Source of the DNA: a virus
Length of the DNA: 20,570 bases
Reading direction: 5' to 3' (one strand)
Virus record (IMG/VR): IMGVR_UViG_3300032304_000413
Location: 1 to 20,570 of that record
Numbering within the stretch: the first letter of the stretch is position 1; every line of letters begins with the position of its first letter. Both the position numbers and the translations under genes were made by a program. Below the pieces are notes generated by a model. The model did no database searches, was not told the DNA's origin, and worked only from the letters and a program-made list of their open reading frames with translations. Of the stretch, positions 222 to 19,200 are shown piece by piece.

Positions 222-2654
222 TTATGCTTGTCCCATGTTATAGCTGTTTCTCGTTGTTTTTTCAACTTGTGTATTAACATTCGAAGTAACCTTTGCAGAA
301 TCCATATACACTGCTATTTTTCCAGATGCCATATCCGCTCTTAATGCTTTAATTTCGTTTACTACTGCTGCCAATGGTGCTGCTAATGCAGATAAACTTC
401 CTCCACCTCCACCCCCACCTGCGGCTCCGGCTAATCCTGGTCCGGCCATTAAATCATCATTTTTACTTAATTCAAATAACCCACCTTCTTTAGTTGATAT
501 TCTGGTTTTCCCATCAGCTGGTGACATTACGTCTCCCGCTTTTCTATAATATTGATAACCCAATGCCAATGCACCAGCCGCAGCCGCTACTCCCAATATA
601 GGACCTACAAATGGTATTGCTGCGATAGATGTGTATGCTCTCATAGCCATTTCGGCAATTGCCCCTAATAATCCTCTTTGTTTTATCATATTACCCGCTG
701 CTACAATACCATTATATGTAGCTTCCAAACCATTTTTTATTGCCGCCCAAGCTGCTTGGCGTTGTTCGGTAATTAAAGCTTCATTTTTATAATAAAAATA
801 AGTGGCTGCTCCCGCTACCAATGCCGCAGTTAGTGGTAATGCTTCTTTCATAAAACCAACTAAAGCCGCAAATCCGTCTGCTGCTGCATTTATTGGTATC
901 ATTATTAAATTTAATACCGTTGCCACTCCCTCTAATAGTGGAGATAAAGCCCCACCAATAGTTGCAACAATTCCCATAAATGCGTTTTGCATTCTAGCCA
1001 ATTGTCCTTGTTGTTCGTTTTGTGCTGCTATTTTTTTAGTTTCTTCTGCTAATTGTTCTTTGGTCATATTGGTAATATCCAATCCTTTATCAATAGCATC
1101 CGATGCAAGTTTCTTTTCTTCTTCAGTTAATCCATTTAATTTTTCTTGCATCATCAATTGCTTGTTTATTTCTTCAACACTCATACCGGCTGCTTTAGCC
1201 AATTGTTGTTGTGTGAAATAATCTTTTTGACGGAAATCACCACTTCTTTGAATTTGTTTTAAGGTTTCTTCATTTGCTTCCTGAAGTTTACCTTCCATTG
1301 CTAATGCTCTTGCTCTACTTAAATTAAACTCACCTCCTACAAATGTTGCAGCTACTAATTCTTGCTCAATACCATTTTCAAAATCTAATAATTTTTCTGC
1401 TAATGATACTTGTTGTTTTAACGAAGTACCCATTCTTTGAGCCTGTATTGCGTTTTTAGTTAATGCGTTTATATCACCTTTAAAGAATGTAGATGCAGCT
1501 TCAGCGTTTTCGGCAATATCTTTAAATACTTTATCAGGTGCAACTCCGGCTAATTTAGCCATATTTGCAACTTGATTTCCTACATTAGCCGCTGTTTCCG
1601 ATGATAATCCTCCAACACTTTCAAGTACACTTTGTACTTTTGCAGCATTACCTGCAGAAACTCCAAAGTTTTGACCCATTACGGACAATGATGCTAATAC
1701 TTCTTCGGAAACATTTACAGTATCACTAAATTCTTCTTTTAATGCTTTTGCAGTATCAAATACATCTTTTAACTCAACACCAGCATCTCTGAAATTCATT
1801 TCAATATGATGTGCGTTGTTAACTAAATCTTTTGTTTGTGAATTCAGTAATCCGGTTTCTTTTCTAAAATCTTGTGCCGCTGCATCTAACGCTACAAATG
1901 AGTGTAATGCTGCACCCAATAATGCATACATTATTACGAGTGGTGCACCCAATGTAGCCAATTGTGCTACCATCTTTTTTGCCATACCCACCGCATCTCC
2001 TATAAATCCAGGCATATGATGTAACAGGTCGTGATTAGCTTCATGAAGTGCGTTGGTTCTTTCGATTTGAGCATGTATATTTTTTAGCACTTGCAACTGA
2101 GCCTCTGCCTCAACTCTCGCATCACCTGTCAAACCCGCTATTGACCTTTGAAATTTTTCTATTTCCGCGTCTCCGGCACTTTGTTCATGTTTTATCGCAG
2201 ATAATTCTTCTGCTTTCCTTACTACTTCTGCAGCTATACTTTCCATTGCAGCAGTTCCTTTTTGGGATTCTTTTAATGCATCACCATCTAAACTAAGTTC
2301 TTGTTGTTTTCTTTGTAAAATTTTGCCAGTTATACTTGCTAATGTATTTGCACCAGCCGTTTGTTTTTTTAAAACAGCTAATGTACCACTTGACATACTA
2401 GCCAGTGAATTTAGAGCATTTTCTTCATAATCTAAATACTCTTGTCTTTTTTTAAGTTCTTTAGCAGAATCGGATTGAACCTTTAATCGGTCTTTCTCCA
2501 CTCGCATCATATTTTCTAACTGAGCTCTCTCAGCATCCGTGGCAGTAGCTATTCTTTCGTTTATTACTCGAATACGCTCTTTTATTTCTGCGTTTTCTTC
2601 TAATAAACGATTTAATTCCGCTTGTTCTGCTGGTGTTAGTGGTGCTACTGCCAT
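222..2654 (-). CDS. Probable tail tape measure protein
   Basis: This is an 810-residue protein. In contractile and siphoviral tails the tape measure fills the tube lumen and sets tail length. Residues 1-230 are highly charged and look like coiled coil (runs of E/K/R/Q around RLLEENAEIKERIRVINERI). A first hydrophobic segment lies at about 233-258. Residues 260-550 are helical and polar. Two long hydrophobic stretches follow, at about 556-622 and 677-703. The C-terminus has a glycine run (GGGGGGG), a second helical piece, and an N/T-rich tail. Coiled coil with central hydrophobic segments is typical of tape measures. It also lies downstream of sheath, tube and a frameshifting chaperone-like gene, the usual place. 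T4 gp29, the equivalent, is 590 residues, so this one is longer. I chose the start at 2654 because it lies 11 bases after the preceding stop. Confidence 0.8.
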   Translation of the reverse strand: MAVAPLTPAEQAELNRLLEENAEIKERIRVINERIATATDAERAQLENMMRVEKDRLKVQSDSAKELKKRQEYLDYEENALNSLASMSSGTLAVLKKQTAGANTLASITGKILQRKQQELSLDGDALKESQKGTAAMESIAAEVVRKAEELSAIKHEQSAGDAEIEKFQRSIAGLTGDARVEAEAQLQVLKNIHAQIERTNALHEANHDLLHHMPGFIGDAVGMAKKMVAQLATLGAPLVIMYALLGAALHSFVALDAAAQDFRKETGLLNSQTKDLVNNAHHIEMNFRDAGVELKDVFDTAKALKEEFSDTVNVSEEVLASLSVMGQNFGVSAGNAAKVQSVLESVGGLSSETAANVGNQVANMAKLAGVAPDKVFKDIAENAEAASTFFKGDINALTKNAIQAQRMGTSLKQQVSLAEKLLDFENGIEQELVAATFVGGEFNLSRARALAMEGKLQEANEETLKQIQRSGDFRQKDYFTQQQLAKAAGMSVEEINKQLMMQEKLNGLTEEEKKLASDAIDKGLDITNMTKEQLAEETKKIAAQNEQQGQLARMQNAFMGIVATIGGALSPLLEGVATVLNLIMIPINAAADGFAALVGFMKEALPLTAALVAGAATYFYYKNEALITEQRQAAWAAIKNGLEATYNGIVAAGNMIKQRGLLGAIAEMAMRAYTSIAAIPFVGPILGVAAAAGALALGYQYYRKAGDVMSPADGKTRISTKEGGLFELSKNDDLMAGPGLAGAAGGGGGGGSLSALAAPLAAVVNEIKALRADMASGKIAVYMDSAKVTSNVNTQVEKTTRNSYNMGQA

Positions 2655-2665
2655 TTAAATCAATA

Positions 2666-2905
2666 TTATTTAAAATCCTTATCTATAATACCCAAATCCT
2701 GCATTTTTTTAAATAATTCAGGTTGTTCATCTTTCATTTTTCTAATTCTAGGAATAAAAGTTTTGGCAAGGTCTTCCATTTCGTTATCCAATTTTCTCAT
2801 TACCGGGTCAGCATCTATAATTGATTGTAATGTTTGTGGTTTCTTTTTACCAAATAATCCAAAAAATTCTTTTAAATTGGATTTTGATATTTTATATTTC
2901 TTCAT
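2666..2905 (-). CDS. Small charged protein of unknown function
   Basis: This 79-residue protein is rich in lysine and other charged residues (MKKYKISKSNLKEFFGLFGKKK at the start). A predicted helical middle (PVMRKLDNEMEDLAKTFIPR) follows, and it ends DLGIIDKDFK. It has no signal peptide or transmembrane segment. It lies between the chaperone-like frameshift gene and the tape measure gene, 11 bases upstream of the latter. An ATATTTATA promoter-like element sits 20 bases before its start, just after an intrinsic terminator, so it is probably the first gene of the tape measure transcript. By position it could be an accessory tape measure chaperone, but I recognise no family and make no functional claim. 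Confidence 0.7.
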   Translation of the reverse strand: MKKYKISKSNLKEFFGLFGKKKPQTLQSIIDADPVMRKLDNEMEDLAKTFIPRIRKMKDEQPELFKKMQDLGIIDKDFK

Positions 2906-2940: not shown

Positions 2941-2979
2941 AATAAAAAAAGTTAGGATTATCTATTAACCCTAACTTTT
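2941..2979 (-). terminator. Intrinsic terminator overlapping the end of the frameshift frame
   Basis: On the minus strand, AAAAGTTAGG pairs with CCTAACTTTT (10 bp). After one mismatch come three more A-T pairs and a short loop. A T-rich run (CTTTTTTTATT) follows directly, as in a Rho-independent terminator. The flanking A4 and T4 make the hairpin nearly symmetric, so it could act on both strands. The TAA stop of the alternative frame (2960-2958) lies in the loop side of the hairpin. A ribosome finishing the frameshifted product would therefore cover the 5' arm. Confidence 0.8.
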
Positions 2980-3224
2980 GAATTATTTGCTTTGTTTGAT
3001 TTTTTTACTTCATCTGCTTCTTTCTTTTTAGAATCTACTAATTTATTGTAGTAAAACATCCTTAAATAAGTTGGCATTTTATAAAGTTCCATTACGGTAA
3101 AACCATTCCCATATTGAACCATATCAAATATTTGGGTATGAACTTGAATACTATGATTCCGAGCTAGGCCAAAAAAAGCTGACACCCATAGTGATAGGCG
3201 CCTCCTCCACCTCTCCATCTTCAT
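2958..3224 (-). CDS. Alternative-frame C-terminal extension of the gp26-like protein (frameshift product)
   Basis: The open frame spans 3224-2958. The part expected to be translated starts at GGC 3170, just after the T7 run, and encodes 70 residues. It reads GLARNHSIQV, then an aromatic, helical stretch including ELYKMPTYLRMFYYNKLVD, then a basic tail (SKKKEADEVKKSNK). It lies +1 (equivalently -2) relative to the upstream gene. The fused product would be 316 residues (+1) or 317 (-2). Two points argue for translation by frameshifting. The first codons of this frame (MKMERWRRR) are just the other reading of the conserved end of the upstream gene, and no ribosome site precedes the ATG at 3224. 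This mirrors the GT extension of lambda-type tail chaperones, where the extension contacts the tape measure. The homology to T4 gp51 suggested by gene order is speculative. Confidence 0.7.
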   Translation of the reverse strand: MKMERWRRRLSLWVSAFFGLARNHSIQVHTQIFDMVQYGNGFTVMELYKMPTYLRMFYYNKLVDSKKKEADEVKKSNKANNSKVRVNR

Positions 3225-3909
3225 GGATATGAGTAAATTTCATATCAACATCAGGTGATATTTTTTTTACATAACTTCTTAATGCTCTACTATCTATTGC
3301 TAACAATCCATTTACAAATTTGTTTATAGTTGTTGATGAATTATCCCCATCAACTGATTGAATCATATAACGTAGACGGGTTGTAATTTCCGCACCCGCT
3401 CCACCTAATTTTTCAATAGCTTGGATATCTTTATCGATTGCTATTTCATCACCATGTGTAAGTAACTTACATATAATTTTTTTCTTATTAGATGGTAATA
3501 CGAATTCAAATTCATTTTTATTATTAAATATTGATAAATCTACTTCTTTTGTTTTTACTTTACCCAAATCAACTCTTGCATCAATTGATTCATTTAATTT
3601 AGATGAATAAAATTTAAAAAGATACTCTGGACCATACCCCAACAATCTAGTTGCAAGGATAATAGCGTTTTTATCTCCTAAAATAATTTCACTAGGATTT
3701 ATGTTACCAACAATAATAGATTCAAATAATTTATCCAAAACAATACCTTTTTTAATAAGATTTTGATTTGAAAGAATATCTTCTTCTTTTGCGGTCATAT
3801 GTTTTATAGTAATTGTACCCGAAGATAGTGGATGGTCTTTTGGGTAAACCTTACCCTGCGATGGAAGGTCTAATACTTCCGTTGGAAAATCATATTGTGT
3901 TTCTGCCAT
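3151..3909 (-). CDS. gp26-like (T4 baseplate protein family) tail assembly chaperone, zero-frame product
   Basis: This 252-residue protein matches what I know of the T4 gp26 / T4_baseplate family. It has an N-terminal LPSQGKVYPKDHPLSSG motif, then TIKHMTAKEEDILSNQ, and a helical middle with GDKNAIILATRLLGYG. The C-terminus is acidic (EDGEVEEAP), followed by GVSFFWPSSES. T4 gp26 is 208 residues and is needed for baseplate hub assembly. The gene lies between tube and tape measure, the place of lambda-type tail assembly chaperones. Its final Phe-Phe codons are a TTTTTTTGG run, where a second frame opens. The role of binding tape measure and recruiting tube subunits is inferred from position and frameshift. 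The start at 3909 follows an A/T-rich leader with a promoter-like element 27 bases upstream. Confidence 0.85.
   Translation of the reverse strand: MAETQYDFPTEVLDLPSQGKVYPKDHPLSSGTITIKHMTAKEEDILSNQNLIKKGIVLDKLFESIIVGNINPSEIILGDKNAIILATRLLGYGPEYLFKFYSSKLNESIDARVDLGKVKTKEVDLSIFNNKNEFEFVLPSNKKKIICKLLTHGDEIAIDKDIQAIEKLGGAGAEITTRLRYMIQSVDGDNSSTTINKFVNGLLAIDSRALRSYVKKISPDVDMKFTHIHEDGEVEEAPITMGVSFFWPSSES
3171..3177 (-). promoter_or_regulatory. Candidate +1/-2 ribosomal frameshift site (T7 run)
   Basis: On the coding strand the zero frame reads AGC TTT TTT TGG. A ribosome with Phe-tRNA on the second TTT can slip one base forward on the T7 run and continue GGC CTA GCT. It could also slip two bases back, adding one Phe. 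Both reach the 70-residue extension. A -1 slip does not. The zero-frame TAG lies at 3153-3151, about 18 bases past the run. A purine-rich GGAGAGGTGGAGGAGG lies 23 bases upstream, farther than known stimulatory Shine-Dalgarno elements. A one-base homopolymer sequencing error (six Ts would give one continuous frame) is the alternative. Confidence 0.65.
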
Positions 3910-4030: not shown

Positions 4031-4519
4031 TTAGAATTCTAAGACTGCGTAATCGTAAGATAGTGTTAATTCGATTGTTGCAACCTCATTTGATGAAAAA
4101 TCTAATTCACCAAAGTTTGCTTGTTGAATAAATGCACCTTTTAAAGTCCATTGTTCAATCTTATCACCAACAGGTCCTAACAAATAGAAAGTAATATCTT
4201 TTTTATAGAAATCTGCATATCCACGTCTACCAGTAATCGATTCATGTCCTAAACGAATCCAATCCATTACCTTTTGTGCTGCAGAAGGTACAATTGGGTC
4301 ATACAATGTAATTGTTATATCTTGCCAATCACCTTTACCTTGTAATTTTCTTTTTACGTTGATATGGTCTAATGCAATTGTTTCAAATTGAATTGTAGGT
4401 CTGTTTGCCGCTTTTACAAGATATGAAGGGATAGTATCTATCTCCATCACATATCTATTTTTCATTTTAGGTTCGAAGTTCGTATAGAACATCTTGTCAA
4501 ACTCTAATATTTCTGCCAT
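4031..4519 (-). CDS. Tail tube protein (gp19-like)
   Basis: At 162 residues it is almost the length of T4 gp19 (163). In T4 this protein stacks in hexameric rings to form the inner tail tube through which DNA passes. Features seen here include an N-terminal MFYTNFEPKMKNRYVMEID, the strand-rich core GDWQDITITLYDPIVPSAAQ, the segment WIRLGHESITGRRGYADFYK, and a C-terminal beta pattern ending ATIELTLSYDYAVLEF. These are typical of the T4-like gp19 family. It follows the sheath gene after a 53-base gap that carries an ATATTTAT-type element. A leader with AAAAGGATAATAAA precedes the ATG. The strong terminator downstream closes the sheath-tube unit. Confidence 0.92.
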   Translation of the reverse strand: MAEILEFDKMFYTNFEPKMKNRYVMEIDTIPSYLVKAANRPTIQFETIALDHINVKRKLQGKGDWQDITITLYDPIVPSAAQKVMDWIRLGHESITGRRGYADFYKKDITFYLLGPVGDKIEQWTLKGAFIQQANFGELDFSSNEVATIELTLSYDYAVLEF

Positions 4520-4572: not shown

Positions 4573-6924
4573 TTATGCTGAGAAACTTGCTCCAGTTGGT
4601 AAGATGTTGAAATCTATTACGATAAATTCCGCTGTCTTAGCCGGTTGTAAGAAAATTTGTCCTGCTAATATGTTTCTATCAATTACATCAGGTGTGTTGT
4701 TACTTTCATCCATTACAACTTTAAAGGTATAAAGTCCTTGTCTTTGTTGTACTGATTCTAAGTAAGGGTTCACAGTGTTTAAGAATCTTTGTCTAGTTGT
4801 AGAAGTATTTTGTTCGAATACTAAGAAACGAGATGTTGATGCAACGAATTTTTTCAAGTTGATAAGTAATCTTCTAACATTGATTCTATCTAAAGCAGAT
4901 GCCTTATCTTGCAATGTTTTCTGTCCGAATGCTACAATACCTTGTCCAGGGAATGCCGCAATTGGGTTTACTTTGTTCTCATATAGAGTATCTCTTTCAG
5001 AGTGTGTTAATCTATTCAATACACTAACTGCTCCGGTAATACCACCTCTATTCAAACCCGCAGGTGCAAACCATTCAGCTGCTAATCTATCGTTAGAAGC
5101 GTAAACCGCTGGTAACAATGTAGAAGGTGGAACAGTTGTAAGTTTGTTTGTGTTACTATCAATTGTTTTCATCCAAGGATAGTAAGTTGCTACATAGTTT
5201 GAATCTACTGAATTTGCTTGCTCAGTTGCTTCAGTAATTGTATCATCATAATCGTTGAAATCAGCAATATAGAAACAATCTTGTCTTTCCTCAACCATAT
5301 CAATTGCTTTAGAAGTAACCGATGGGTGAAGGCTTCTTACAATACCAGGAGTTACTACCATATTGATATCATATTCATCAGGGTTAGATACTGCGTTGAT
5401 TGCTTTAGTATATGCTATTGAACCATTTTGTGATGCGTTTGAACAATTGAATCCTTGTGTATTTGAATTTCCCCAATCAGTATCACCAGCCTTAGCTTTT
5501 CTTACGGTTGGGTTCATACCATCAAATCCATATTGGAATCCTAATACAAATTGTCTTTTAACCATATCAGTTGATGCTGAACCAGTCATTACATATGATA
5601 ATTGTGAATCAAATGCGAATGCTACGTTAGCTCCAGCTACTGCTCCATCAGGAATTGGTTTTAAATATTGTTTGTTATCTATTGCTTTATATGCATCTTC
5701 AAAATCAAATCCAGAAAAATAAACTGGAGATGATGATGTGTTGTTTGCTGAACCTGTTTGGTAATTTACGGCAGGCACCCAATTTGCTTCTGTTGTAGAA
5801 TTTGTTTTAATTGGATTCACATATGCTGCATGTCCAAAAGGTGCTGCTGATATTGGATAAGAACCTGGTCCTAAAATATTAGAATTAGCATCTAATACAA
5901 CTACTCTTACATTGTTTGATTTATTTGAGTAATCACCAATTTCAGTTAATTTTCCATTAGAATCGATTGTTAACTTTCTATCACCAATTCTTCTAGCTAT
6001 ATAGTTAGGAGATGCAGGGTCTAAGTTAACGTTATTATATGTTTCAACTACACTCTTTCTTTTATCAGTATCACTAAATGAACGAATTGTTACAGTAAAT
6101 GTTGAATAATCGGTTGAACCATCTTCACCAGCCGCTTTTACATTAGAAATACCAACTTTAAATTTAGTATTATATAATGTACCATGTCCTATTGTTTCAA
6201 ATTTAAATAAGTTATATCTTTCACCACTAATTAATTGAGATACTACAATTGGAGTACTTGCTTCTTCTGCATCACCATACACTTGTGTTGGTAAATTAAG
6301 TTCGTATATTTGTACACCTTGTAGAGCACTATCATCTTTATATCCTAATGATGCACTTTCAAAATACAAATATCCATAAGCTGCTTTAGCACCGAATGGA
6401 GATTCACCAAATACGTCAGAAATATCGTTTGTAGCTTCTTGAAAAATTGATGCTGATACACTAGCTATTCCAGAACCAGAACCAATTAGTCCTGATATTA
6501 CAAATGAACCAGATACCGATGCACTACTTGTAATATTAGTAGAGCCATTTACAAATCCAACACCCTCATCACCAAAATTAGTTGAATATAAAACTCCAAC
6601 TAGTTTTCTGCCTTGAGAACCGGATGCTAATATACCCAAAGGTGCTGCCTGTGAGTAACCACCAATTCCGGCAACTCTTACGATTGTTGCTTGTCCAGCT
6701 TCTCTTAAATAATTTTGTACTGCGTATTCAGTATAATAAGTTCCATCAGGTGTTCCGAAGATATCTTCAAATTCTGATTGTGTTCTTACGATTGTTGGAA
6801 CGAATGCAGGTCCTTGTTTAAAAGGTCCTATAAATGCCGCTCCAATTTCTCCAACTCCTTGAGCTAAGAAGGATAGGTCATTTTCTCTTGTGAATACGCC
6901 AGGTGATACGATTCTTTCTGCCAT
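4573..6924 (-). CDS. Contractile tail sheath protein (gp18-like)
   Basis: This 783-residue protein forms the outer contractile sleeve around the tube. The N-terminus MAERIVSPGVFTRENDLSF, followed by GEIGAAFIGPFKQGPAFVPT and the segment SEFEDIFG, is characteristic of T4-type sheaths. The C-terminal part (about 645-783) carries the conserved GIVAFGQKTL, then RINVRRLLINLKKFVASTSR and FEQNTSTTRQRFLNTVNPYL, and ends FIVIDFNILPTGASFSA. The C-terminal domain is the part that interlocks with neighbouring subunits. It is longer than T4 gp18 (659). The extra length seems to lie in Ser/Gly-rich, variable surface domains at about 100-450 (for example SVSGSFVISGLIGSGSG). The ATG at 6924 follows an A-rich leader (GAAGAAATAAA). 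Confidence 0.95.
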   Translation of the reverse strand: MAERIVSPGVFTRENDLSFLAQGVGEIGAAFIGPFKQGPAFVPTIVRTQSEFEDIFGTPDGTYYTEYAVQNYLREAGQATIVRVAGIGGYSQAAPLGILASGSQGRKLVGVLYSTNFGDEGVGFVNGSTNITSSASVSGSFVISGLIGSGSGIASVSASIFQEATNDISDVFGESPFGAKAAYGYLYFESASLGYKDDSALQGVQIYELNLPTQVYGDAEEASTPIVVSQLISGERYNLFKFETIGHGTLYNTKFKVGISNVKAAGEDGSTDYSTFTVTIRSFSDTDKRKSVVETYNNVNLDPASPNYIARRIGDRKLTIDSNGKLTEIGDYSNKSNNVRVVVLDANSNILGPGSYPISAAPFGHAAYVNPIKTNSTTEANWVPAVNYQTGSANNTSSSPVYFSGFDFEDAYKAIDNKQYLKPIPDGAVAGANVAFAFDSQLSYVMTGSASTDMVKRQFVLGFQYGFDGMNPTVRKAKAGDTDWGNSNTQGFNCSNASQNGSIAYTKAINAVSNPDEYDINMVVTPGIVRSLHPSVTSKAIDMVEERQDCFYIADFNDYDDTITEATEQANSVDSNYVATYYPWMKTIDSNTNKLTTVPPSTLLPAVYASNDRLAAEWFAPAGLNRGGITGAVSVLNRLTHSERDTLYENKVNPIAAFPGQGIVAFGQKTLQDKASALDRINVRRLLINLKKFVASTSRFLVFEQNTSTTRQRFLNTVNPYLESVQQRQGLYTFKVVMDESNNTPDVIDRNILAGQIFLQPAKTAEFIVIDFNILPTGASFSA

Positions 6925-7518: not shown

Positions 7519-7908
7519 TTATCTATTGTTAAATAAAGTTTTTAGCATTTCTTTAATTTCAGAAATTTCATTATTTTGTTTATCAATGATAGTTTGTTGT
7601 TCTTTAATAGCCTCTACTAAAAGTGGAACTAATTTATCATAATCAATTGTTAGATAATTCTCACCACTCTTAGAACCTTTTATTTCTTTAGTTTCCGAAT
7701 CTATATCAGTATCGAACGGTGCTAAATGTACAATTTCAGGTAATATACTTTGAACTTCTTGAGCCGATAAACCCAATTGTACTTTGGTATCAGTATATCC
7801 TACTGAATGTGCTAACTCATTGTTTACATAGTAAAATCCATTTAATCGAGATACCTTTTCTAATGCATTTTCAATGTTACCAACTTTTGTTTTTAACCTT
7901 TCATCGGA
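7519..7908 (-). other. S74 intramolecular chaperone domain of the giant fibre
   Basis: This part of the fibre gene codes for residues 2117-2245. The motif SDERLK gives the cleavage Ser2117, Asp2118, and Lys2122 at +5. LGLSAQEVQSILPEIV and the final YLTIDYDKLVPLLVEAIKEQ are the conserved core and trimerising helix of S74 domains. All key residues are present, so cleavage is expected. Confidence 0.88.
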
Positions 7909-10900
7909 ATAGTATGCTATAATATTTCCCTGTGCAAATATCCAATCATAACAATATATGTTGTTATTAATGATATAGTTAAATCTAGATGTAGAATTAA
8001 AATCACCATAATATCCGGTATCGTGGTCATAGAAAATCGGAGAACGAATATCGTTGTTCACATACATACCATATGGTTGAATAGACATTCTATCATTACC
8101 TCTCCATCTCAAATACCATATACCATCTCCTTGAGCGTAATATATCCACCCATATGAGTTATCATGCAATCCAACATCACCACCTCTACCCATCCAACAA
8201 AATCTACTCGTAATACCATATCCTAACCATCCATTTCTACCACCACCATATGTAGCTATTGTTCCATAAGGGTTACCCTCACATTCTGGAGACCAGATAC
8301 CTCTACCATAAGACTCCCAATATACACCAGTACATCCTTGAGGTCTAAACCAGTTATTTGCTAATACATAGTGTAATTGGGATGTACCATCCATGTTAAG
8401 ATAGTATCCGGTATTATTATAATCGTAAATAAATGTACTTCTTAATTCATATGTATAAGTTCTATTTCCAGAATAGTGGTTAATATAAGTTTCATATCCA
8501 TTTTGACAATCTAAGTGTAAGTTACCATTAGTTGCTACAACAGATGCTTCACCTCCAGGTCTACCATTTGCTCCAACATAAAGATAGGCTCCCCAAGTTA
8601 AGTTAGGTCCATGTAGTGTACCTCCTCTGATTCTCAATGCAGCGTTTGAACCAGAGTTAGGGTCTATATAGTATCCGGTATCATTGGCATCGGAGTATGA
8701 ACCTGCGTACAACGTACCACCACTACCATCGTTACGGTCATGCATTGCAACAGTTGTCCAACCACCAGAATTTGGCCAAGATTGTCTAAACCTTAAGTTT
8801 CCTATTGGTCCACCAACCAATTGCCAACCATACGCACTATTGTATGCATTTGTATAGTGATGAGCCTGAACACCTACCCAGTGTGATGTACCAGATGGTT
8901 GGTTTGCTGGGTTTGACCATGTATCAATGAAACCAGAACCCCATGTCATTACAGAGTTAAAGTCTTCCGTACCCCAACCCATTATACCGGTCCAATAATC
9001 ACTATTACCAGTAATATCCGGTCTTTTCCAATTCGTTTTACCAGTTAGACCAGTTTGAGCCTTACCTCTAAGTGTTAATCCTTGCCAGTTACTTTCACCA
9101 TTGAAGTTACCATAATATCCAGTATCGTGGTCATAGAAAATCGGAGCCATCATATCACTTCTTGCCCAAATTCTAGAAGAAATTGCCGAAAATGTAGTAC
9201 CATAGTTCATCACTAATAATCCGTGGTCATTAAGAAATCCAGCTTGTCCTCCTGCATTTGGATGTGACCAAGATAAACCATATAAGTTACCAGGATTAGT
9301 ACCATCAATCGCTAATTTATAAGCGTTACCCATAGAAAATACACCCTGATATCTAACCGATGTATAAACACCAACAATTGATTGTCCGTAGTTATAATCT
9401 AAATAAATGTTTTCATTTCCATCAAGACGTAATCCACCATTTGCTACTACATAAGATAATCTAGCAGTTCCAGCTGGGTCTACATAATATCCAGTATTAT
9501 TTGAATCATAAAATATTGGTGCTCTTAATGAGTTACCTCCGGTTAAATAATCGTTGGCGTAAACAGTACCATTAGAATACCACTCCATTGTACTATAACG
9601 AGTACCAGATGTGTTAGTATTATAGAAGTATGTATTACCGCCAGTGTTAAATCTCATATAGGCTTGTCCCTGCCCTCCATTGATTCTACCAAATCCAGAA
9701 GGAGAACCACCATCGTTTTGTACGTTAAATCCAAAACCACCATCGTTCCAAGTTACACCAGGTTCAGATACCCACATTTGTAAATAAGATGGAGTACCAG
9801 TACCCATTTCACTACCAATAGCAGTAATTCTAAGTGTGGAGTTACCATGTCCACCAGCTACCTCTAATCTACCTCTCAAATAAGAACCACCATTAGGGTC
9901 TAAATAATATGTAGTATTATCACTATCATAAAATATTGGTGCTCTAAACGAACCATTTGCCCAAACAGTAGAACCATTATCCCATCTTAAATTCCAACCA
10001 ACTTGAGAAGTAGTACCACCATATCCCAATCTCCAATCATTTGCCGAAAAGTTCCACATCAAACCCCAATAGGTAGATGCATTATTCATAGCAAATCCGC
10101 CGGCATTATTATATCCTTGTGCTACAAATGAATTTCCATAATTTACGTTATGAGTATTTGATGTAATTACGTTGTAAATAGTTGTTCCAGCTGGGTCAGA
10201 ATAATATGCTGTGTTATCTCTATCATAGAATCTATATGCGTATAAATCTCCACCAAAAGTTACATTACCACCTATAAATGCCCCACCAGCAAATCCAAAA
10301 CGAGAATAAGTTGTACCATTGTTTCTTAATGCTAAATGATGGTCATATCCACTTCCATATTCATAACCCAATCCATACATATTACCAATTGGCCAACTTT
10401 CCCCAATTGTCCAAATTACTTTTGAAGCAGTACCAGTAGAATTATAGCTACCCATCATACCACCATCGCCACGAGCTACCAAATAGTTTGAAAACCAAAG
10501 TCTACCATTTTGCTCAGTTTGATTAAAGTTGTTTGTTCCTGCAAAATCACCATAATATCCGGTATTATCATTATCTCTAAATAATGGTGCTCTGAAATCA
10601 GTTGATGCAAATGCAATACCACTTTCATTTACTGAAAATAATTCGTTTGATGCTTTTATTGCATTACTACCTACTATAAATTTATTATCGGTATTATTAT
10701 TTGAATCAATACTTACACGCACATCACCAGCACTTGCCAAATATAATACGTTACCAGATGAATTACCTTGATGTATAACAACATCATATGTGTTATCTCT
10801 GTACATACCAGCATTTGTATCTCCTAAATAAAATGCTCCACCATTTCCACCAGAGTTTGCAATTACTTGATTAAATACTACGTTATCAGTTGTACGAACA

Positions 10901-13900
10901 TTCTGATTCATATTATAAGCGAATGCTTGGTCAACACTATTTAATATCTGTCTCCAATCACTATATGTTGATGCTCCAGTTCCAATTCTTGTCCACAATC
11001 TATGATTTGCCGTATATGCAATTTGCATTGGAGCTCCACCACTTAAATCGGTACTACTACCATAACTTCTCCAAAACATTTGTCCATTAAATGAGCCACC
11101 ATCATTTAATCCGTTTGTACTATTTGCTTTGAAATCAAAATAAACTCCAGCATTTTTACTTGATGGTGTATCATTTGTATTACGAGTATCATTCGAATCA
11201 ACAGCTTCTGCTCTATCCGCAGTACCAGTTAAATTTGCAGTTACATTTACAAAAGTTGGTGAATCAGTTGTTCTAAGATTTTGATTCATTAGATGAACTT
11301 CAGTTGCTCCTTGTCCGGTATCAACCGTAGAGAATGTAACTGCATCCGTAGTTCTTACGTTTTGATTCATCAAATGAACTTCAGTTGCTCCTTGTCCCGT
11401 ATCAACCGTAGAGAATGTAACGGCATCAGTTGTACGAACATTCTGATTCATTAAGTGAACCTCAGTTGCACCTTGTCCCGTATCCACAGTTGCAAACGTT
11501 ACTGCATCAGTTGTACGAATATTTTGATTCATTAGGTGAACTTCAGTTGCACCTTGTCCCGTATCTATCGTACCACTTATTGTTATATTACCTGCACTTA
11601 CTGAAAGGTTTCCACCACTTACAGTTACACCATTTGTAGCCGTAATCGTTGCATGAGTAACGTTATCAGTTGTTCTAAGATTTTGATTCATTAAGTGAAC
11701 CTCAGTTGCACCTTGTCCTGTATCTACAGTTGCAAATGTAACAGCGTCAGTAGTTCTAACATTTTGGTTCATTAAATAAACCTCAGTTGCACCTATACCA
11801 GTATCTATCGTACCAGTAAGAACTAAATTACCAGCTATATATGTGTTATCATCATGATACCACCTATCACTACCTTCATCCCAATAAAATTGTTTTGTTG
11901 CTGCATTACCTCTCTTAACTTCTATACCAGCATTTTCAGTTGGTGTAGTTCCTACTCCAATATCTGCGTTAAGTGTAATAATATTATCACCTACGTTAAG
12001 AGTTGTTGTATTAATATATGTTGTAGTACCACTTACAGTAAGGTCACCACTAATTGTAGCGTTACCAGTTACTGTCAATGTAGTACCATCGAATTTTAAA
12101 TTTGCTTCAACGGTTGCATTTGGTGCAGTTCCGTTTAATGTGATTACACCATTATCAGTTGTACCGGTTAATGATAATAATCCAGAAGTACCGGATGAAC
12201 CAGAAGTTCCTGAAGTTCCTGATGTACCACTACTACCGGAAGTTCCTGAAGTACCAGATGTTCCCGATGTTCCACTACTACCAGAAGTACCTGAAGTACC
12301 AGATGTTCCCGATGTACCAGATGAACCACTTACTCCCGATGTTCCTGAAGTTCCCGATGTTCCACTTGAACCAGAAGTTCCCGAAGTACCAGATGTTCCT
12401 GATGAACCACTTATTCCGGATGTTCCCGAAGTTCCTGATGTTCCAGAAGAACCACTTGCACCGGAAGTTCCTGATGTTCCTGATGTTCCAGAAGAACCAG
12501 AAGTTCCCGAAGAACCACTCGCACCTGAAGTACCAGAAGTTCCTGATGTGCCACTAGTTCCTGAACTACCAGCTGAACCACTTATACCAGAAGTTCCTGA
12601 TGAACCAGAAATTCCGCTTGTTCCTGAACTTCCATTTATACCAGATGTACCAGAGCTTCCATTTATACCGGATGTACCAGAACTTCCATTTATTCCAGAT
12701 GTTCCTGATGTACCAGAAGTTCCCGATGAACCTTGTACTCCACTTATTCCAGAAGTTCCACTTGTTCCTGAAATTCCAGATGTACCGGATGTTCCTGATG
12801 TACCAGATGTTCCAGATGAACCATTTGAACCAGATGAACCTTGTGCACCACTTGTTCCGGATGTTCCAGATGTACCAGAAGTTCCTGATGAACCAGATGT
12901 TCCAGAAGAACCACTTGTTCCTGAAGTTCCCGATGAACCACTTCCACCGCCGGCTCCACTTACTCCAGAAGTTCCTGATGTTCCAGATGTACCATTGATT
13001 CCCGATGTTCCATTAACACCCGATGTACCAGATGTACCCGAAGTACCTGCACTACCTGCACTACCAGTACCTCCACCAGCTCCTGTTATACCACTGGTAC
13101 CCGATGTACCAGAAGTTCCTGATGTACCACTTATTCCTGAAGTTCCCGAAGAACCACCACTTCCACCGGTACCACTAATTCCAGAACTACCCGCAGTTCC
13201 GGTTGAACCAGATGTTCCAGATGTACCAGAACTTCCTTGTGAACCAGAAGTACCTGAAGTTCCACTACTTCCATTTGAACCAGATGTTCCACTTGTTCCT
13301 GAACTTCCTGATGTACCAGATGTACCAGAAGAACCAGTACTTCCAGATGTACCTGAAGTACCCGATGTACCTGAAGTTCCTCCCGAACCAGAAGTTCCAT
13401 CAGTTCCACTTGTTCCCGAAGTTCCGGATGTTCCACTTGTTCCCGATGTTCCAGATGTTCCTCCACTACCAGAAGTTCCCGATGTTCCAGAAGTTCCAGA
13501 AGTTCCTGATGTGCCACTAGTTCCACTACTTCCTCCACTACCAGATGTTCCTGAAGTTCCTGAAGTACCCGATGTACCAGAAGTTCCTGATGTACCAGAA
13601 GTTCCTTCCGAACCGGTGGTACCAGATGTACCGCTTGTTCCAGAAGTTCCAGAAGTTGCTGCTGCTGTTTTTATACCAATTTTACCAGTTGATGGGTTAT
13701 AAACTAATACCTCATCGGTTGTTATATCTGATTTTAATGAACCAACACCAAATGATAATGAACCTGTAATACCAACACTTCCAGTAAATTCTTGCTTATC
13801 ATTTTGTGCATCACCAAATTTGTTACTTCCACTTGCATAAATTATTGATGATGAAATATATGTTGCGAATAATTCAGTTGTATTTATTTTTCCAGCTACA

Positions 13901-14256
13901 GTTAAATCAGTATTAACTACTAACCCTCTATTTGGAGAAATTATTGCGGTTGCTGAACCTGATTTTAATCTATCTAAATCACCAATTGCCGCTGCATTAA
14001 TATTAAACAAACCACCACCATCACCAATAAAAAGTGAAGAAGTAATTGAACCACTAATTTTTACATTAGAATTTATTTGAATCGAATTTGTTGGTGACCC
14101 AATCAAAGATGTTTGTATTCCAGAAGCAGAAAAATTTGCACCCACATCAATTGAATGAGATGAAAAATTAGCTACACTACTTCCACTTACAAATAAAGAA
14201 ATTTTGTCTTTAGTTTGTTGATTTAAACCGTTTGGGTTACCACCTAAATATTCCAT
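7519..14256 (-). CDS. Giant tail fibre with (GTS)n shaft, tandem fibre modules and S74 autoproteolytic chaperone
   Basis: This is a 2245-residue fibre protein. Residues 1-200 are a Ser/Gly-rich beta head with repeated SGS(I/L)-type motifs. Residues about 200-692 are a Gly-X-Y array, mostly GTS, with GSS, GIN, GIS and GAG variants. Residues 818-1005 hold six 27-residue repeats (consensus DTGQGATEVHLMNQNVRTTD). From about 1220 to 2090 there are eight modules built on APIFYDSDNTGYY-DP-G, rich in Trp, Tyr and Asn, the likely receptor-binding part. The C-terminus is an S74 (endosialidase-type) intramolecular chaperone. Ser2117 precedes DERLK, with Lys2122 at the +5 position that forms the Ser-Lys dyad in characterised members. 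This dyad should release a 129-residue C-terminal piece after trimer folding. It ends in a coiled-coil-like tail (KEQQTIIDKQNNEISEIKEM). It starts 12 bases after the preceding gene's stop. Confidence 0.93.
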   Translation of the reverse strand: MEYLGGNPNGLNQQTKDKISLFVSGSSVANFSSHSIDVGANFSASGIQTSLIGSPTNSIQINSNVKISGSITSSLFIGDGGGLFNINAAAIGDLDRLKSGSATAIISPNRGLVVNTDLTVAGKINTTELFATYISSSIIYASGSNKFGDAQNDKQEFTGSVGITGSLSFGVGSLKSDITTDEVLVYNPSTGKIGIKTAAATSGTSGTSGTSGTTGSEGTSGTSGTSGTSGTSGTSGTSGSGGSSGTSGTSGTSGTSGTSGTSGSGGTSGTSGTSGTSGTSGTSGTDGTSGSGGTSGTSGTSGTSGSTGSSGTSGTSGSSGTSGTSGSNGSSGTSGTSGSQGSSGTSGTSGSTGTAGSSGISGTGGSGGSSGTSGISGTSGTSGTSGTSGITGAGGGTGSAGSAGTSGTSGTSGVNGTSGINGTSGTSGTSGVSGAGGGSGSSGTSGTSGSSGTSGSSGTSGTSGTSGTSGAQGSSGSNGSSGTSGTSGTSGTSGISGTSGTSGISGVQGSSGTSGTSGTSGINGSSGTSGINGSSGTSGINGSSGTSGISGSSGTSGISGSAGSSGTSGTSGTSGTSGASGSSGTSGSSGTSGTSGTSGASGSSGTSGTSGTSGISGSSGTSGTSGTSGSSGTSGTSGTSGVSGSSGTSGTSGTSGTSGSSGTSGTSGTSGTSGSSGTSGTSGTSGSSGTSGLLSLTGTTDNGVITLNGTAPNATVEANLKFDGTTLTVTGNATISGDLTVSGTTTYINTTTLNVGDNIITLNADIGVGTTPTENAGIEVKRGNAATKQFYWDEGSDRWYHDDNTYIAGNLVLTGTIDTGIGATEVYLMNQNVRTTDAVTFATVDTGQGATEVHLMNQNLRTTDNVTHATITATNGVTVSGGNLSVSAGNITISGTIDTGQGATEVHLMNQNIRTTDAVTFATVDTGQGATEVHLMNQNVRTTDAVTFSTVDTGQGATEVHLMNQNVRTTDAVTFSTVDTGQGATEVHLMNQNLRTTDSPTFVNVTANLTGTADRAEAVDSNDTRNTNDTPSSKNAGVYFDFKANSTNGLNDGGSFNGQMFWRSYGSSTDLSGGAPMQIAYTANHRLWTRIGTGASTYSDWRQILNSVDQAFAYNMNQNVRTTDNVVFNQVIANSGGNGGAFYLGDTNAGMYRDNTYDVVIHQGNSSGNVLYLASAGDVRVSIDSNNNTDNKFIVGSNAIKASNELFSVNESGIAFASTDFRAPLFRDNDNTGYYGDFAGTNNFNQTEQNGRLWFSNYLVARGDGGMMGSYNSTGTASKVIWTIGESWPIGNMYGLGYEYGSGYDHHLALRNNGTTYSRFGFAGGAFIGGNVTFGGDLYAYRFYDRDNTAYYSDPAGTTIYNVITSNTHNVNYGNSFVAQGYNNAGGFAMNNASTYWGLMWNFSANDWRLGYGGTTSQVGWNLRWDNGSTVWANGSFRAPIFYDSDNTTYYLDPNGGSYLRGRLEVAGGHGNSTLRITAIGSEMGTGTPSYLQMWVSEPGVTWNDGGFGFNVQNDGGSPSGFGRINGGQGQAYMRFNTGGNTYFYNTNTSGTRYSTMEWYSNGTVYANDYLTGGNSLRAPIFYDSNNTGYYVDPAGTARLSYVVANGGLRLDGNENIYLDYNYGQSIVGVYTSVRYQGVFSMGNAYKLAIDGTNPGNLYGLSWSHPNAGGQAGFLNDHGLLVMNYGTTFSAISSRIWARSDMMAPIFYDHDTGYYGNFNGESNWQGLTLRGKAQTGLTGKTNWKRPDITGNSDYWTGIMGWGTEDFNSVMTWGSGFIDTWSNPANQPSGTSHWVGVQAHHYTNAYNSAYGWQLVGGPIGNLRFRQSWPNSGGWTTVAMHDRNDGSGGTLYAGSYSDANDTGYYIDPNSGSNAALRIRGGTLHGPNLTWGAYLYVGANGRPGGEASVVATNGNLHLDCQNGYETYINHYSGNRTYTYELRSTFIYDYNNTGYYLNMDGTSQLHYVLANNWFRPQGCTGVYWESYGRGIWSPECEGNPYGTIATYGGGRNGWLGYGITSRFCWMGRGGDVGLHDNSYGWIYYAQGDGIWYLRWRGNDRMSIQPYGMYVNNDIRSPIFYDHDTGYYGDFNSTSRFNYIINNNIYCYDWIFAQGNIIAYYSDERLKTKVGNIENALEKVSRLNGFYYVNNELAHSVGYTDTKVQLGLSAQEVQSILPEIVHLAPFDTDIDSETKEIKGSKSGENYLTIDYDKLVPLLVEAIKEQQTIIDKQNNEISEIKEMLKTLFNNR
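7990..10600 (-). repeat. Eight diverged fibre modules with the YD-x-NTGYY-DP motif
   Basis: Within the S74 fibre, copies of a motif like FRAPIFYDSDNTTYYLDP recur eight times at roughly residues 1225, 1342, 1440, 1580, 1704, 1855, 1942 and 2074. They are separated by about 90-150 variable, Trp/Gly/Asn-rich residues. Variants include IYDYNNTGYYLNMDG and IFYDHDTGYYGDFN. DNA identity between copies is low, so these are old duplications. They probably form beads along a trimeric shaft. Confidence 0.85.
11242..11805 (-). repeat. Six 81-bp tandem repeats (27 residues each)
   Basis: The unit DTGQGATEVHLMNQN(V/L/I)RTTD followed by (A/N)VTFATV occurs six times, at residues 818-844, 845-871, 898-924, 925-951, 952-978 and 979-1005. 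A 26-residue Ser/Gly insert separates copies 2 and 3. Two neighbouring copies are exactly 81 bases apart at matching sites, and their DNA is nearly identical. A seventh, decayed copy (NMNQNVRTTDNVVF) lies near 10870-10915. Confidence 0.92.
12181..13656 (-). repeat. Collagen-like (Gly-Thr-Ser)n array of the S74 fibre
   Basis: About 1.47 kb with a nine-base period encode roughly 490 residues of Gly-X-Y, dominated by GTSGTS. GSS, GIS, GIN, GAS and GGG/GSGG variants are interspersed. Proline is absent, unlike animal collagen. Synonymous third positions vary from unit to unit. Because of the repeat, several other frames stay open on both strands. Confidence 0.95.
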
Positions 14257-16282: not shown

Positions 16283-19200
16283 TTAACTTAAATTTTTAGC
16301 TATTGTAAATCCATACCAATTTGTTCCACCATCAAATGTATAAAATACTAATACATCTTCACCGGATGATGTTAATACAGGTTGAATACCACCTGCCCAA
16401 TTAACCGTTGCCGGCCATGTAATTACATATGCTCCTGCATTTACAGTTAATAATGTAAATCCAAATGCTTTACCAGCAGGTACGTTGGTAAATGTTACTG
16501 TGGCTGTTGCGTTAAATTGTCTTCTAAAATTATTTGCAGTTGAACAATCTATTGCAACACTACCACCGGTTGATAAATTATTATAAATTTCTCTATACGA
16601 TGTTGCTTCCAAATATGTACTGGCATCCAATCCACCCGTCAATGTAATATCACCCGTTTGTGTTGTATTACCAACTATTGTTAACGTAGAACCATCATAT
16701 GTTAAATTACTTTCAACATTTGCTTGTGTAGGAACATCCTGATATGTGAGTAATCCATTATTAGTCGCACCATTTAGTGGAAATCCATTTGTACCAGATG
16801 TTCCAGATGTTACACCCAACGCGGATGTACCAGAACTTCCATTTACACCAGAAGTTCCCGAAGTTCCAGATGAAAAACCTGGAGCGTTTGTACCACTTGT
16901 ACCAGATGTTCCGGTTTGACCAGATGTTCCAGAAGTTCCGGATGAAAAACCAGGAGCGTTTGTACCACTCGTACCCGCACTTCCATTACTACCACTTATT
17001 CCCGAAGTACCCGATGTACCACTACTAAATCCTGGTGCGTTAGTACCGGATGTACCAGATGAACCACCAGAACCACCAGTTCCTTGTGCTCCAGAAGTTC
17101 CACTGCTTCCAAAAAAAGTTCCATTTACTCCGGATGTACCAGAAGAACCAGAAGTTCCCGAAGTTCCATCGGTTGCTGAGGAACCAGAAGTTCCATTACT
17201 TCCGGAAGTACCAGATGTACCACTACTTCCAAAGAATGTTCCATTTAATCCAGATGTACCAGATATTCCTGAAGTTCCGGATGTTCCATCGGTTGCCGAA
17301 GAACCAGAAGTACCACTTATACCAGAAGTTCCTGATGTACCACTACTTCCAAAGAAAGTTCCATTTACTCCGGATGAACCAGAAACTCCAGATGTTCCTG
17401 ATGTTCCAGAAGTACCAGATGTTCCCGATGTGCCACTTGTTCCACTTGTTCCACTACTTCCAAAGAATGTTCCATTTACTCCAGATGTTCCAGAAATACC
17501 AGAAGTTCCGGATGTCCCGGATGTTCCGGATGTACCCGAAGTTCCATCTGAACCAGATATACCTGAAGTTCCACTACTGCCAAATAAAGTTCCATCTAAT
17601 CCGGATGTTCCTGAAATTCCTGAAGTACCCGAAGTTCCAGATGAACCATTGATTCCAGAAGTTCCATCGATTCCTGAAGTACCCGAAGTTCCACTACTAC
17701 CAAATAAAGTTCCATCCAATCCAGATGTACCAGAAATTCCTGAAGTTCCACTTGTGCCAGAAGTTCCCGATGTACCCGATGTACCACTTTCACCACTCGT
17801 ACCACTACTTCCAAAGAACGTACCATTTAATCCCGATGTACCACTTGTCCCATCGGTACCAGATATACCAGAAGAACCACTAATACCGCTTGTTCCAGAT
17901 GAACCAGATATACCGGAAGTTCCACTACTTCCGAAGAATGTTCCATTTAATCCTGATGTACCACTTGTTCCATCAGTTCCCGATATACCAGATGTACCAG
18001 AAGTTCCATTACTACCAGATGTTCCCGAAGTTCCATTTATACCAGAAGTACCACTACTACCAAAGAAAGTTCCATTTACACCCGATGTACCATTAATACC
18101 TGATGTACCACTCGTTCCCGAAGTTCCACTAGTACCAGATGTTCCCGATGAACCATCGATGCCCGATGTACCACTACTTCCAAAGAATGTTCCATTTACT
18201 CCGGATGTTCCTGAAGTTCCTGAAGTTCCGGAAGTACCACTCGTACCGGATGTCCCATCACTACCAGAAGTACCAGAAGTTCCTGATGTGCCATTTATTC
18301 CTGAAGTTCCCGATGTACCCGAAGTTCCATCAGTACCAGTAGAACCAGAAGTTCCCGATGTACCATTACTACCCGAAGTACCAGAAGTTCCATTACTTCC
18401 AGAAGTTCCTGATGTACCACTCGTTCCACTTGTACCCTCACTACCATCAGTACCACTTGTGCCCGATGTACCAGATGTACCATCACTACCGGAAGTTCCC
18501 GATGTACCATTTATACCAGAAGTTCCCGAAGTTCCCGATGTACCATCAGTTCCAATTCCGCTTGTACCAGAAGTTCCTGATGTGCCACTTGTGCCATCAC
18601 TACCACTCGTACCGCTTGTACCAGAAGTTCCCGATGTTCCACTTGTACCTTCACTACCATCAGTTCCAGAAGTACCAGAAGTTCCCGATGTACCATCACT
18701 ACCAGAAGTTCCAGATGTACCAGATGTACCACTTGAACCGGAAGTACCACTTGAACCGGAAGTACCAGATGTACCCGAAGTTCCTGAAGTTCCTGAAGTT
18801 CCATCTGAACCAGATGTTCCTGAAGTTCCAGATGTTCCGCTTGTTCCTGAACTTCCAGATGTACCAGAAGTTCCAGAAGAACCATCACTTCCTGAAGTTC
18901 CTGAAGTACCACTTGTGCCCGAAGTACCATCCGAACCATTCGTTCCGGATGTTCCTGAAGTTCCTGAAGTACCTGAAGTACCAGATGTACCAGATGTTCC
19001 CGATGTACCAGAAGCTCCACTACTACCAGAAGTTCCCGAAGTACCTGATGTACCATCTATACCGGAAGTTCCAGATGTTCCGGATGTTCCTGATGAACCA
19101 GATGTTCCCGATGAACCACTTCCACCACTTGTACCGGATGTTCCTGATGTTCCTGATGTACCAGAAGTTCCGGAAGAACCACCGGTACCCGTACTACCAG

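Follow-up and report, generated by a model that had tools for sequence, protein, structure and literature searches.

Most tail chaperone genes shift -1, and in bacteria and their phages sense codons rarely host programmed +1 frameshifting. In phage lambda, a short tail assembly chaperone (gpG) and a frameshift-extended form (gpGT) result from a shift near the 3' end of a gene located between those for the tail tube and the tape measure (PMC5009743). The tail assembly chaperone (TAC) of phage Mu employs a -2 shift, and that of the haloarchaeal myovirus HSTV-2 a shift termed 'very likely +1' (PMC5009743), systems to which we liken the present locus by description. Among cellular genes, CUU_U and, in a few species, UUU_U serve as +1 sites in the bacterial gene for release factor RF2 (prfB), UUU_U being much the weaker of the two in E. 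coli (PMC5009743); UUU_CGN has been reported as a +1 motif in plant amalgaviruses (PMC5052127).

In T4-like phages, TAC genes were identified by Vladimirov, Gautam and Davidson (Virology 2022), as related in PMC10885494 and PMC12846349; the latter cites that study in connection with -1 signals of the poly-T type in the TAC-N genes of T4-like phages, and the former describes some T4-like phages as having short and long (fused) TAC genes instead of frameshifting. T4-like chaperone genes and their frameshifting are thus of a known, published kind, and in the literature, with Vladimirov 2022 represented by its title and the papers citing it, we found no report of a deep +1 clade in this family. 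T4 gp26 and gp51 belong to one family (PF12322, phrog_150), gp51 being the long form with a C-terminal extension. The two T4 genes are adjacent, on opposite strands, whereas at the locus described here one gene would make both forms.

This locus occurs in IMG/VR viral contig IMGVR_UViG_3300032304_000413, from which the window, the whole stretch of 20,570 bases that was analysed, was taken. A sequence-only reading of the window had proposed a programmed frameshift in a gp26-like gene lying between those for the tail tube and the tape measure. Both the match of this gene to phrog_150 and the minus-strand gene order (sheath, tube, TAC, a 79-aa ORF, an 810-aa tape measure candidate) agree with that placement, which is the one occupied by the lambda gene; an annotated tape measure also follows the TAC gene in phages immuto and LIS04. 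The relevant features are as follows.

4573..6924, minus strand: tail sheath protein (PF04984, E 3.9e-17; phrog_23, E 6.6e-70)
4031..4519, minus strand: gp19-like tail tube protein (PF06841, E 1.2e-10; phrog_4542, E 2e-32)
3909-3151, minus strand: TAC-N, predicted gp26-like short tail assembly chaperone, zero frame, 252 aa plus stop (phrog_150, E 3.1e-6)
3169..3177, minus strand: slip site TTTTTTTGG, zero frame TTT TTT TGG; the +1 frame goes on GGC CTA
2958..3176, minus strand: TAC-C, the +1-frame extension, 72 codons plus stop (FFGLARNHS...KVRVNR)
3151..3171, minus strand: dual-coding stretch, bounded by the shift and by the zero-frame TAG stop (3153-3151)
2666-2905, minus strand: 79-aa ORF (MKKYKISKSNLKEFFGLFGKKK...), flanked by the chaperone extension on one side and the tape measure on the other
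222..2654, minus strand: tape measure candidate, 810 aa, putative chaperone partner, assigned by position (weak TMP_2 match, E 0.0028, below the Pfam cutoff)

The zero-frame ORF ends AGC TTT TTT TGG CCT AGC TCG GAA TCA TAG (...GVSFFWPSSES), with a run of seven T (T7) at 3177-3171 in the register AGC TTT TTT TGG CCT. From this run a second frame, reachable by a shift of +1 or -2, continues as FFGLARNHS...ELYKMPTYLRMFYYNKL...KVRVNR to a TAA at 2960-2958, giving 72 codons, or 70 after the two Phe. On re-reading the window we found these residues and positions, including the 70-residue second frame with ELYKMPTYLRMFYYNKL, as they had originally been described.

To the family of gp26 and gp51 the gene is joined by profile similarity. 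TAC-N of the window matches phrog_150 (baseplate hub), as do all 27 aligned relatives (best E 2.9e-31) and both T4 gp26 and gp51; these two T4 proteins also match PF12322, for which the window protein scores 16.9 bits, below the 24.5 cutoff. Direct profile alignment (hhalign) of TAC-N with T4 gp26 and gp51 alignments is weak (E 0.004-0.005, probability 7-9%), and the homology is carried by the PHROG match. TAC-N and the extension were modelled separately by AlphaFold2 from window and viral-contig locus sequences only. The TAC-N model (pLDDT 90) has a fold matching SP-15 and other T4-like baseplate hub proteins, its top PDB match being the HK97 tail assembly chaperone 2ob9, at a weak E 0.56 and probability 0.63. 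The window protein had no relative in a scan of bacterial and archaeal genomes. The view that gp26 corresponds to the N-terminal part of a chaperone is strongly supported by the phrog_150 match common to it, gp51 and TAC-N, and the chaperone connection of both T4 proteins, which the sequence-only reading had also drawn, had already been published (Vladimirov 2022, as cited in PMC10885494 and PMC12846349).

For the extension, the same reading had suggested a gp51 role, and the comparisons point that way more faintly. Beyond about position 235, phrog_150 is covered by gp51 and not by gp26; the window fusion of both frames reaches position 250, and that of Microcystis phage Mel-JY01 spans 7-274 of 282, ending inside the gp51-specific tail. 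The family of the gp51 C-terminal part, phrog_634, is matched by 6 of 42 extensions (best E 0.013). Alignment of the extension with T4 gp51 by hhalign, the kind of profile comparison that had been suggested, places the MP..LR helix onto M.P.ER, weakly (E 0.02, probability 2%). The extension model comprises three helices (pLDDT 82), and a fold search with the 72-aa extension gave no match with E <0.17.

To survey the arrangement, we gathered relatives from viral contigs (80 for the window protein, 80 for the Mel-JY01 gene, 80 for the immuto gene and one for SP-15) and added named phages, giving 243 loci in total; clustering yielded 106 representatives at 90% identity, 66 at 80% and 20 clusters at 60%. 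A conserved extension in the +1 frame is present in 242 of the 243 loci, cut by the contig end in 10 of these. It is the longest downstream extension in 239; in three others (L128, L157 and L165) another frame is longer and the conserved extension is still +1, and a single locus (L007) has its extension in the -1 frame. Among the 66 representatives the extension is 67-116 aa long, begins with FFGL in most, and retains the MP..LR motif. In 13 close representatives, divergence at codon positions 1/2/3 is 0.26/0.13/0.44 in the second frame and 0.20/0.13/0.37 in the zero frame. Because of this codon-position pattern, the second frame is, as judged by divergence, coding sequence under purifying selection. 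It overlaps the 3' end of the gp26-like gene, with conservation in either frame, as in genes of the G/GT type; on such comparisons the overlapping arrangement is far beyond chance. Alignment with homologues, proposed earlier as a check, thus revealed a conserved slip site and two conserved frames across 243 loci and 66 representatives, and the loss of the second frame in homologues that would have spoken against the proposal was not encountered.

The slip site itself is unusually constant. Its nine bases are TTTTTTTGG in 51 of the 66 representatives, and in 15 of the 20 clusters at 60% identity, counts to which no P value is attached since the sequences are related. The other 15 representatives have close variants: TTTCTTTGG in seven, CTTTTTTGG and TTTTTTTAC in two each, and TTTCTATTC, TTCTTTCGT, TTTTTTCAC and TTTCTTTAC once each; among all 243 loci, four have TTTCTATGG. 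In every variant, U or C comes directly after an in-frame UUU. At Phe-Phe pairs elsewhere in the same loci, TTTTTT is used in 19 of 75 (25%) and T7 in none: the Phe codons at the slip site escape normal codon choice. Isolated phages conform as well, with TCC TTT TTT TGG in Rhodothermus phage RM378 and GAG TTT TTT AGT in Listeria phage LIS04, each followed by an extension in +1. The presence of T7 followed by GG in the isolates RM378 and Mel-JY01 argues that the run is no assembly artefact of the window contig. Streptococcus phage GXN1 (L005, 4700-4708) has the site TTC TTT CGT, an instance of the UUU_CGN motif.

These observations allow the possible mechanisms to be weighed. The sequence-only reading had left the shift as +1 or -2, and the frame alone does not separate the two; at T7 sites, that of the window included, +1 shifting, -2 shifting and transcriptional slippage all fit. 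The variants are more discriminating. Re-pairing of tRNA-Phe after a +1 slip on UUU_U/C is perfect at all of them, whereas -1 re-pairing fails at C-interrupted sites. For a -2 slip of the kind documented in Mu (PMC5009743), in which the product would read FFFGLAR instead of FFGLAR, re-pairing is perfect at T7, T6C and CTTTTTT sites (CTTTTTTGG) and needs one first-position G-U pair at TTTCTTT (TTTCTTTGG). At TTTCTATGG, TTTCTATTC and TTCTTTCGT, however, both -2 and -1 re-pairing are impossible and the same frame is kept, so that re-pairing does not extend to all members as a Mu-type shift would entail; TTT CTA TGG, TTT CTA TTC and TTC TTT CGT in relatives permit +1 and not -2. We regard a -2 shift as unlikely. 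Because the frame is the same at every site, +1 is the only rule that accommodates them all, and it is favoured for the family; for the window, +1 would follow from the variant sites of its relatives. A canonical -1 TAC likewise differs from what is seen, the extension being in +1 everywhere but in L007. Slippage of RNA polymerase on homopolymers, known for longer runs, would drop one U from, or add two to, some of the mRNAs and dispense with any ribosomal shift, and a T7 conserved at the site and avoided elsewhere accords with it. Runs of seven are, however, short for bacterial RNA polymerase slippage, and of the representatives at 90% identity roughly one in five (23 of 106, with TTTCTTTGG, TTTCTATGG, TTTCTATTC, TTCTTTCGT or TTTCTTTAC) have no run of more than three T and retain the arrangement, making this explanation quite improbable.

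Annotation bears on a further alternative, namely that the second frame is independently started, as a gene in its own right. The extension is annotated in this manner in Mel-JY01 (L003, 4740-4976), as a hypothetical gene, and, among cyanophages of the -1 class, in S-PM2 (L250, 4191-4364), as gp51; in immuto, SP-15 and LIS04 its conserved part is not annotated as such, with short ORFs or none in its place. The window does have an upstream ATG in the second frame, at 3224. Across the 66 representatives, however, the upstream +1 frame lacks ATG in 38 and any of ATG, GTG and TTG in 22, and because these 22 have no start codon ahead of the second frame we consider a separate gene very improbable. 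A +1-frame stop at -5 to -3 from the slip in 10 representatives, and a +1-frame residue identity (66 representatives) of ~0.1-0.27 upstream that jumps to 0.97 at the slip, tell equally against it, and independent initiation would leave the Phe-codon bias unexplained. The annotation of the named relatives examined, which either leaves the extension out or enters it as a hypothetical gene of its own, would be corrected accordingly. That the true gene has six T and forms one continuous ORF, a concern raised by the error-prone nature of homopolymers, has next to no likelihood for the window; for the family, on comparative grounds, sequencing or assembly error is already refuted by the same frame break recurring across hundreds of contigs and several isolates, as well as at sites without a homopolymer.

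We therefore return to programmed +1 frameshifting, which very probably yields the short and the long tail assembly chaperone of a T4-like phage with a contractile tail, homologues of T4 gp26 and gp51; the conserved slip site, the retention of both frames and the +1 extension in 242 of 243 loci lend strong support to the programmed shift originally proposed. Both the frameshifting itself and the chaperone role we infer from conservation and homology. Most ribosomes would stop at the zero-frame TAG, producing TAC-N, the gp26 analogue. In a minority, peptidyl-tRNA-Phe in the P site on UUU would slip one base forward on UUU_U and re-pair with UUU, and the shifted ribosomes would read some 70 more codons to give TAC-NC, the gp51 analogue. 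If the lambda gpG/gpGT pair is a guide, the tape measure protein would be coated by TAC-N, and tail tube subunits would be brought in through the extension of TAC-NC; lambda shifts -1 and the window class +1, and the likeness is drawn from gene layout. The proposed slip resembles those at prfB and UUU_CGN sites, where the P-site tRNA moves +1 on CUU_U, UUU_U or UUU_C. At prfB the ribosome pauses at a stop codon and an upstream Shine-Dalgarno (SD)-like element is present, whereas in the window class the codon that follows is usually UGG (Trp); upstream of the site in close relatives there is a purine stretch resembling an SD element, GAGGTGGAGGAGG, within protein-coding Glu/Gly codons. Given that UUU_U falls far short of CUU_U in E. 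coli, one would expect the shift to be inefficient or to depend on a stimulator so far unseen. RNA stability around and downstream of the site showed no excess in eight stretches (z 1.4 to -1.5), and an RNAalifold consensus of 13 sequences contained one pair changed on both sides, with a covariation term of -0.14 kcal/mol; we claim neither a conserved RNA structure near the site nor a stimulator. In 49 of the 66 representatives a stop shuts the -1 frame three codons past the slip. This early stop is possibly a trap that renders -1 slips on the T run harmless, or may be a mere consequence of conserved residues after Pro.

Comparison with the -1 class, represented by KVP40, Aeromonas phiAS5, S-PM2 and Bellamy, places these features in an evolutionary setting. 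Its members share with the window the TAC-N family, a comparable position before a large tail gene, a 3'-terminal Phe-Phe slip site and a short C-terminal extension, there annotated gp51. They differ in using xxT TTT TTC G and the -1 frame, as against +1 at mostly TTT TTT TGG. In a tree of TAC-N sequences the +1 class stands apart from the -1 and T4-type classes with support 100/99. Because both clades shift at an equivalent Phe-Phe site, we lean towards a history in which a -1 clade, including the separate T4 genes 26 and 51, and a deep +1 clade, comprising phages of Flavobacterium, Microcystis, Rhodothermus, Bacillus, Listeria and Streptococcus together with huge uncultured phages, came to differ by a switch of slip direction with the product kept; in the +1 clade a usually immediate -1 stop would make -1 slips into harmless products of TAC-N size. 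The exceptional locus L007 (LR756511, from a 595-kb uncultured phage), with the site GGT TTT TTC TTC and its extension in the -1 frame, lies on the +1 side of the tree, weakly supported and on a long branch. It is a possible second switch of direction; several other rows are also long-branched, and for both reasons the switches may number one or more. One homologous family using -1, +1 or two genes for the same two proteins would constitute a natural experiment on slip direction, and would support the assignment of T4 gp26 and gp51 as the short and long tape-measure chaperones.

Two minor features of the window may be added. The 79-aa ORF has a counterpart in position in Mel-JY01, where a small ORF occupies the matching place (L003, 5033-5248). 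Two very large minus-strand ORFs, at 7519-14256 and 16283-20548, carry long GTSGTSG repeats and are tail-fibre-like; the end of the former resembles an intramolecular chaperone (YYSDERLKTKVGNI...), and because of their repeat composition, antisense frames of 520 and 901 aa are left open.
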